From: a virus
Direction: 5' to 3' (one strand)
IMG/VR virus record: IMGVR_UViG_3300043395_000134
Location: 1 to 25,921 of that record
Length of the DNA: 25,921 nt
How positions within the stretch are numbered: position 1 is the stretch's first letter; every line of letters begins with the position of its first letter. The position numbers were made by a program, and so were the translations under genes. The notes under the pieces are model-generated. The model did no database searches. It was not told the DNA's origin and worked only from the letters and a program-made list of their open reading frames with translations. Positions 209 to 18,546 of the stretch are shown here, one piece after another.

Positions 209-416
209 TTTTCTTTCCGTTCTGGTATTCGTCCCATACTGTTTTTCCTACTAGATCCCGTGAACAGGTTCCAGAAGGTTCGCAAATTGGTGGATTACAT
301 TCCTTTGCTTCCCAGTTTGCTGGGTCTTGGCAAGGGTAACGATAAAAACCGCTATACCCACAGCCACTAAGACTTAATATAAGTATACACGATAGTAAAA
401 TACTACGAATTTTCAT
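201..416 (-). CDS. Small phage lipoprotein
   Basis: This is a 71-residue protein with a signal sequence, MKIRSILLSCILILSLSGC. The lipobox LSGC ends at Cys19, so lipidation and anchoring on the outer face of the membrane are expected. The mature part is short and holds four more cysteines (29, 40, 45, 51) in a compact pattern with the motif YRYPCQDPANW, which suggests a disulfide-stabilised domain. From memory, similar small lipoproteins occur in marine and freshwater phages including T4-like cyanophages; I could not check this. An outer spanin is one idea but would be odd in a host without an outer membrane; superinfection immunity is another. The function is unknown. The start has no well-spaced Shine-Dalgarno (AAAGG lies 1 nt away) but has TATAAT six nt upstream, so it may be read from a leaderless transcript. 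Confidence 0.85.
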   Translation of the reverse strand: MKIRSILLSCILILSLSGCGYSGFYRYPCQDPANWEAKECNPPICEPSGTCSRDLVGKTVWDEYQNGKKNG

Positions 417-422
417 GCCTTT

Positions 423-431
423 ATTATACCA
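423..431 (-). promoter_or_regulatory. Extended -10 promoter, probably leaderless start for the lipoprotein gene
   Basis: On the minus strand the sequence is TGGTATAAT, a TGN extended -10 with a perfect TATAAT (428-423). It is followed by AAAGGC and then the ATG at 416. Six bases between the -10 box and ATG would place transcription start at or next to the A of ATG. No convincing -35 box is visible, which is usual for extended -10 promoters. Confidence 0.5.
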
Positions 432-18089: not shown

Positions 18090-18529
18090 TAATTGGGTAT
18101 CCCTATTATCATTAGGTTTACCCCCACAGTTGCATCTCCGCCTTCATAAAATCTTACTAGACCAGTAACTTTTGTTGTTGTTGGTGGATCAATTACAACA
18201 GAAACATTTTTACCAGCAACCGTTCCAGTAATGTTTACTGGTGTTGCCGTTACAATTGGTGGAAACTTAAAATCAGCATAATCATAATCAAAAGAAACAG
18301 TGTCCCCAGGCTTTACTGTTTGCGTTGTTGTTACTTGCTTATATCCTAAAACTATTTTTGCATTAGACGTTTTTTCTGTTTCTGAAGGTCTTCCAGGAAT
18401 ATCTAATGTTAAATATTTATAAGTGGTAGATGGAATGCTTGCAGACAAACTATTGATAGCGTCAACCATACTATAAATGTATGTTACATCAAGCGGTTGT
18501 CCTCTTTCTGGTAATGGAATTTTTGCCAT
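18089..18529 (-). CDS. Tail accessory protein with H-type-lectin-like beta domain
   Basis: This 146-residue protein has a short helical N-terminal stretch (MAKIPLPERGQPLDVTYIYS, likely for attachment to the tail), and a beta domain with KPGDTVSFDYDYADFKFPPI and IVTATPVNITG. The FPP-x-VTATP pattern resembles the H-type lectin-like fold used in phage receptor-binding tips. It would help adsorption by binding sugars. The gene is last in the tail block. It has no Shine-Dalgarno, but has TGGTATAAT eight nt before the ATG, suggesting separate, perhaps leaderless, expression. Confidence 0.72.
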   Translation of the reverse strand: MAKIPLPERGQPLDVTYIYSMVDAINSLSASIPSTTYKYLTLDIPGRPSETEKTSNAKIVLGYKQVTTTQTVKPGDTVSFDYDYADFKFPPIVTATPVNITGTVAGKNVSVVIDPPTTTKVTGLVRFYEGGDATVGVNLMIIGIPN

Positions 18530-18537
18530 AATTAAAT

Positions 18538-18546
18538 ATTATACCA
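18538..18546 (-). promoter_or_regulatory. Extended -10 promoter, probably leaderless start of the lectin-like tail gene
   Basis: The minus strand is TGGTATAAT, then eight nt, then the ATG at 18529. The box begins right after the upstream stop codon. The same TGGTATAAT stands before the lipoprotein gene (423-431). No ribosome site is visible before this ATG. Confidence 0.5.

Follow-up and report, generated by a model that had tools for sequence, protein, structure and literature searches.

The DNA analysed here, a virus record of 25,921 bases that we call the window, has a GC content of 35% and carries its main genes on the minus strand, the strand of every feature given below as a coordinate range. 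A gene at 201-416 encodes a 71-aa Cys-rich lipoprotein with a signal peptide and the lipobox LSGC, whose cysteine is residue 19. Its ATG start codon (416-414) is the only in-frame start ahead of the lipobox: as read from the sequence, the stretch from the preceding in-frame stop codon to the lipobox Cys contains no other ATG, GTG or TTG. Along the minus strand, the TAG stop of the upstream gene (436-434) is followed by the 17-nt intergenic gap ATTGGTATAATAAAGGC (433-417) and then by the ATG. This gap contains TGGTATAAT (431-423), an extended -10 element in which TATAAT is directly preceded by TGn in the form TGG, and which ends six bases ahead of the lipoprotein ATG, a spacing that we denote N6. 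The intervening AAAGGC (422-417), with C at -1, is a discriminator whose length is fixed and whose sequence is variable in homologues. We found no -35 box at this site, where AAGAAA at a spacer of 17 gives three of six matches; extended -10 promoters of the sigma-70 type do not require a -35 box and may lack one.

A preliminary description of this DNA had placed an extended -10 element at N6 from the lipoprotein ATG, and the coordinates bear this out directly. It had also held that the only Shine-Dalgarno (SD)-like bases lie too near the ATG to work. The only such stretch before the gene is AAAGG, 1 nt from the ATG, and judged by its sequence the lipoprotein gene of the window is without a usable SD site. 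Ordinary SDs precede the window genes that begin at 870, 658, 4183 and 10507, and several other genes, mostly overlapping a neighbour, have no clear SD.

The immediate upstream neighbour (434-658) is a 74-aa membrane-protein-like gene with an SD, and in many relatives a different gene stands in its place. In the three nearest records whose similarity covers both flanks of this gene, nothing matches the gene itself. Similar genes occupy the same position in loci L005, L008 and L132, and the segment presents a case of small-gene turnover beside a conserved promoter. Beyond it lies a 69-aa small membrane protein (661-870) with the SD AAGGAGG, holin-like by appearance only and without a family match in PHROGs or Pfam; in many phages a relative of this gene is the immediate upstream neighbour of the lipoprotein gene. 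On the downstream side, a further small membrane protein gene (2-208) is cut by the window end and overlaps the end of the lipoprotein gene; it has a weak PHROG match whose function is not annotated. The lipoprotein itself has 17 invariant columns in an alignment of 15 sequences, no match in PHROGs or Pfam, and a poor structure prediction (mean pLDDT 64.7, pTM 0.27). A scan of genome contigs gave only one match, a partial one (44% over 32 residues), in a MAG named Sphingobacteriales. That the protein acts at the cell surface, for example by excluding other phages, is only a guess.

We considered how often such an arrangement would be expected by chance. The window has 8 occurrences of TATAAT followed by ATG at any spacing from N4 to N10, where shuffled sequences give 6.72, and 42 of 100 shuffles reach 8, so that there is no excess. 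The longer TGGTATAAT is found twice against 0.44 expected, a count that 7 of 100 shuffles reach, and both copies stand just before an ATG. The second (18538-18546) lies between the preceding gene and the ATG at 18529, at N8 from that ATG; only three near-identical relatives were found for it. Because the window by itself shows no excess, the question was put to its relatives, and the case rests on them.

Homologues of the lipoprotein were collected in a scan of viral contigs, from which 80 of 304 were kept, and in an alignment-based scan, from which 80 of at least 589 were kept. The resulting 157 loci and the window were put through a motif search in which the start was chosen without regard to TATAAT, and this yielded 105 distinct homologues including that of the window. 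These are the homologues that fit a fixed motif; a few divergent ones fall outside, among them that of locus L025, which also has TATAAT at N6. In 78 of the 105 the box is separated from the start by exactly 6 nt; the distance is 7 nt in 11 (89 at N6 or N7 together) and 9 nt in one, where a neighbouring in-frame ATG or GTG was allowed as the start because TATAATG itself forms an ATG. The remaining 15 have no TATAAT at N5-N9: six of them have GATAAT at N6, an ambiguous case that overlaps TGA TAA, and others have an SD-like motif or a TAG immediately before the ATG. Neither of the two records of an annotated-phage collection with a clear homologue, DSL-LC01 and MW202675, has the box, and the lipoprotein gene (locus L077) of the relative G007, at 43.7% GC, also lacks it. 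The exact position of the promoter is thus conserved in most of the related phages examined, with the qualification that homologue counts are not independent events, since the homologues are related.

The composition of the site is conserved together with its position. Among the 78 N6 homologues, the extended -10 G at -14 is present in 77 and the T at -15 in 47, and base -1 is a pyrimidine in every one (T in 64, C in 14); most other discriminator positions vary more. An SD-like motif precedes only one of the 78, in agreement with what had been noted for the window alone. Two properties of leaderless genes of the actinobacterial type, a -10 box placed some 6-8 nt ahead of the start and the lack of a functional SD, are both found here. 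The suggestion that the lipoprotein transcript is leaderless is accordingly strengthened as a prediction from sequence by the conservation, before this gene, of box position, G-14, -1 pyrimidine and lack of an SD.

An upstream ORF was found in 77 of the 78 N6 homologues, and its stop lies 12-35 nt before the ATG, at many different values. Such proximity could indicate that the lipoprotein is translated from the upstream operon transcript by reinitiation of ribosomes that finish the preceding gene, with TATAAT incidental, and six loci (L065-L069 and L076) in which a TAG abuts the ATG and TATAAT is missing are the kind of arrangement that such a route would use. Across the family, however, the upstream gene differs from phage to phage and the stop-to-ATG distance varies while the box-to-ATG distance stays at 6, which argues that the position of the box follows the start codon rather than the preceding gene. 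Reinitiation leaves this fixed spacing unexplained, as it does the conservation of G-14 and of the -1 pyrimidine and the presence of the same box before many unrelated genes, and we regard it as a very unlikely account of the site. The promoter and reinitiation routes could nevertheless operate together.

The preliminary description had proposed counting TATAAT-N6-8-ATG across the full genome. The window being a 26-kb virus fragment, this test was run on relatives. Across 1.1 Mb, made up of the window and the first 80 loci, we counted distinct occurrences of TATAAT-Nk-ATG that open an ORF of 45 codons or more. N6 has 93 of them, with lipoproteins counted in, and N9, the next-highest spacing, has 31; the 19 other hexamers composed of three A and three T reach at most 13 at N6. 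When the lipoproteins are left out of all 158 sequences, N6 still has the most of any spacing, with 95 sequences in 24 protein families; the 95 contain three lipoproteins that the filter missed, and 19 of them form a family of small membrane proteins, probably SD-led, with a strong SD at its representative. As a separate observation, TATAAT stands at N6 before relatives' genes whose products begin MAKI or MARI; some of these also have AAGGAG farther upstream.

In the records of 12 relatives, 79 of 1,863 predicted genes have TATAAT-N6-ATG, lipoproteins included, compared with about 8.5 at an average control spacing (spacings 12-30, summed over per-record averages). The 1,863 genes were chosen greedily from ORFs of 50 codons or more and are not a curated annotation, and a gene entered among the 79 if any ATG in its first 40% fitted. 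The proposed excess is thus strong at N6, and at N7 and N8 it is weak. A cruder control, the reversed pattern, gives 37 against 187 in 19 whole records, at least two of which look like the same phage, and 18 of the 19 have one or more matches. G007 has no TATAAT-N6 gene. Phage T4, examined over 100 kb at similar GC, shows no excess (1 against 0.74 expected), and Streptomyces phage Gilson, also over 100 kb, has TATAAT at N6 twice against 0.26 and TAnnnT at N6 10 times against 5.95, a signal that is at most weak.

The N6 genes of the 12 records resemble the lipoprotein sites in composition. G-14 is present in 56 of the 79, and -1 is a pyrimidine in 64 of the 79 as compared with 91 of 269 SD-led genes. 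Boxes resembling TTGACA in at least five of six positions occur six times at a spacer of 17 and three times at 18, with at most two at each of the remaining spacers between 8 and 34, and by eye a few N6 sites directly follow terminator-like sequences. These features bear on the idea that TATAATNNNNNN is an AU-rich element that enhances translation and is no promoter. It does lie within reach of the ribosome at a gene from which an SD is absent; the extended -10 G is nevertheless a feature of promoters, as is the TTGACA that a subset has at 17-18 nt, and we consider this idea extremely improbable. It might alternatively be that the promoter is real and its start site misses the ATG by a few bases, so that the mRNA has a leader of 1-4 nt and is not strictly leaderless. 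The spacing of 7 in 11 homologues and of 9 in one would fit such a leader, as would N7 and N9 counts above background in some records, for example G001, and the N8 of the second window site. We judge it very unlikely, given that N6 is by far the commonest spacing and that the step from pyrimidine to A falls on the ATG itself.

A surface-protein family that adjoins the lipoprotein neighbourhood also has TATAAT-containing leaders. In the window it is represented by a PA14-domain protein gene (2935-872) that seems to start at an ATA codon (2935-2933), 8 nt after the SD GGAGG, with a TTG at 2953 as an alternative start upstream. Among 37 PA14 homologues including that of the window, the codon after the SD is TTG in 24, ATT in four and ATA in three, four are ambiguous between ATA or ATC and ATT, and two are unassigned; none has ATG or GTG there, and only five have any in-frame ATG or GTG near the start. 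The family thus appears to avoid ATG starts and may be under translational control. We used a script to select 33 leaders of this family in which TATAAT is followed by an SD-like motif. TGn precedes the box in all 33, and by eye a short hairpin starts 6-8 nt past the box in about 20. The hairpins stand near the predicted mRNA 5' end and just before the SD, as in L025, L121, L033 and L093, and their arms, again judged by eye, differ in sequence between phages and keep their complementarity. Their position offers an independent hint as to where transcription may start relative to the box.

The group to which the window belongs probably infects actinobacteria, since both the relatives of its terminase and the presence of WhiB in related phages point there. 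The terminase shares about 55% identity with its counterparts in Streptomyces phages, for example Gilson, and WhiB (PF02467) is present in 16 of the 19 relatives and, among 14 control genomes, in Corynebacterium glutamicum only. Passages of PMC6802176 and PMC10202952 describe WhiB as restricted to actinobacteria and use it to recognise actinophages. The hint at an actinobacterial host that had been drawn from the leaderless arrangement thus gains indirect support, and low-GC freshwater actinobacteria are a plausible host group.

Leaderless expression of a phage gene has a familiar precedent in cI of phage lambda. Lambda, whose leaderless transcript is mentioned in PMC3160421, is alike in that a phage gene is read from a leaderless mRNA; its host is E. 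coli, whereas in the phages considered here the lipoprotein and several other gene families per phage carry the pattern. Leaderless genes with a TATAAT-type box are already known in actinobacteria, where, according to the passages of PMC3160421 consulted, such boxes lie about 12 bp before the starts of roughly a fifth of genes and low-GC genomes have a fuller TATAAT, sometimes with a TG extension. The TANNNT-box genes described there resemble ours in a -10 element that places the transcription start at or next to the start codon, in the absence of an SD and in their actinobacterial setting, and they differ in that here we have phage genes of low GC with a full TATAAT and an extended -10 G. In mycobacteria, an ATG or GTG at the 5' terminus is both necessary and sufficient for translation (PMC4633059, as far as consulted), and the same rule would suffice here, although the mycobacterial leaderless mRNAs were shown by experiment and those of this phage group are predicted. 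The freshwater actinophages of PMC6802176 and PMC10202952 are likewise low-GC tailed phages with whiB. The words 'leaderless' and 'promoter' do not appear in the main text of PMC6802176, as consulted, and the portions consulted of PMC10202952 do not discuss leaderless genes. Among the top-ranked papers of the open-access literature, we found no earlier report of conservation of the box in this phage lipoprotein family or of its repeated use in these phages.

Taking these observations together, we consider it very probable that the lipoprotein gene has an extended -10 promoter with its start at the ATG and a leaderless mRNA. We infer that TGGTATAAT would be bound by a housekeeping-type (sigma-70/sigma-A-like) RNA polymerase holoenzyme, most likely that of the host, and would work without a clear -35 box. 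Transcription would start at the A of the lipoprotein ATG, so that the mRNA probably begins at the start codon itself, and the 5'-terminal AUG would be recognised directly by the ribosome, as in actinobacteria. The promoter could thereby provide the lipoprotein gene with expression of its own, besides or apart from that of the preceding gene.

TGnTATAAT-N6-ATG can be read as a sequence rule for promoters and true start codons in a phage group that is represented in the present data almost entirely by metagenomes. For a cultured Ca. Planktophila strain, phages have been described (PMC10202952, as far as consulted) that belong, as far as tested, to another phage family, and a comparable system might thus allow 5' ends to be mapped. 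The rule marks genes that these phages may express from promoters of their own, and gene callers based on SDs may misplace such starts. A broader and rather unlikely proposal is that leaderless genes form a set kept throughout the clade, and that each of them has an extended -10 promoter of its own within operons that are otherwise SD-led. Through this set, a few products such as the lipoprotein would be synthesised by the host's polymerase and 70S ribosomes, outside the timed programme of the phage. If this is true, leaderless products might be made, for example, early, changing the cell surface, or late, at a stage of reduced SD-dependent initiation.
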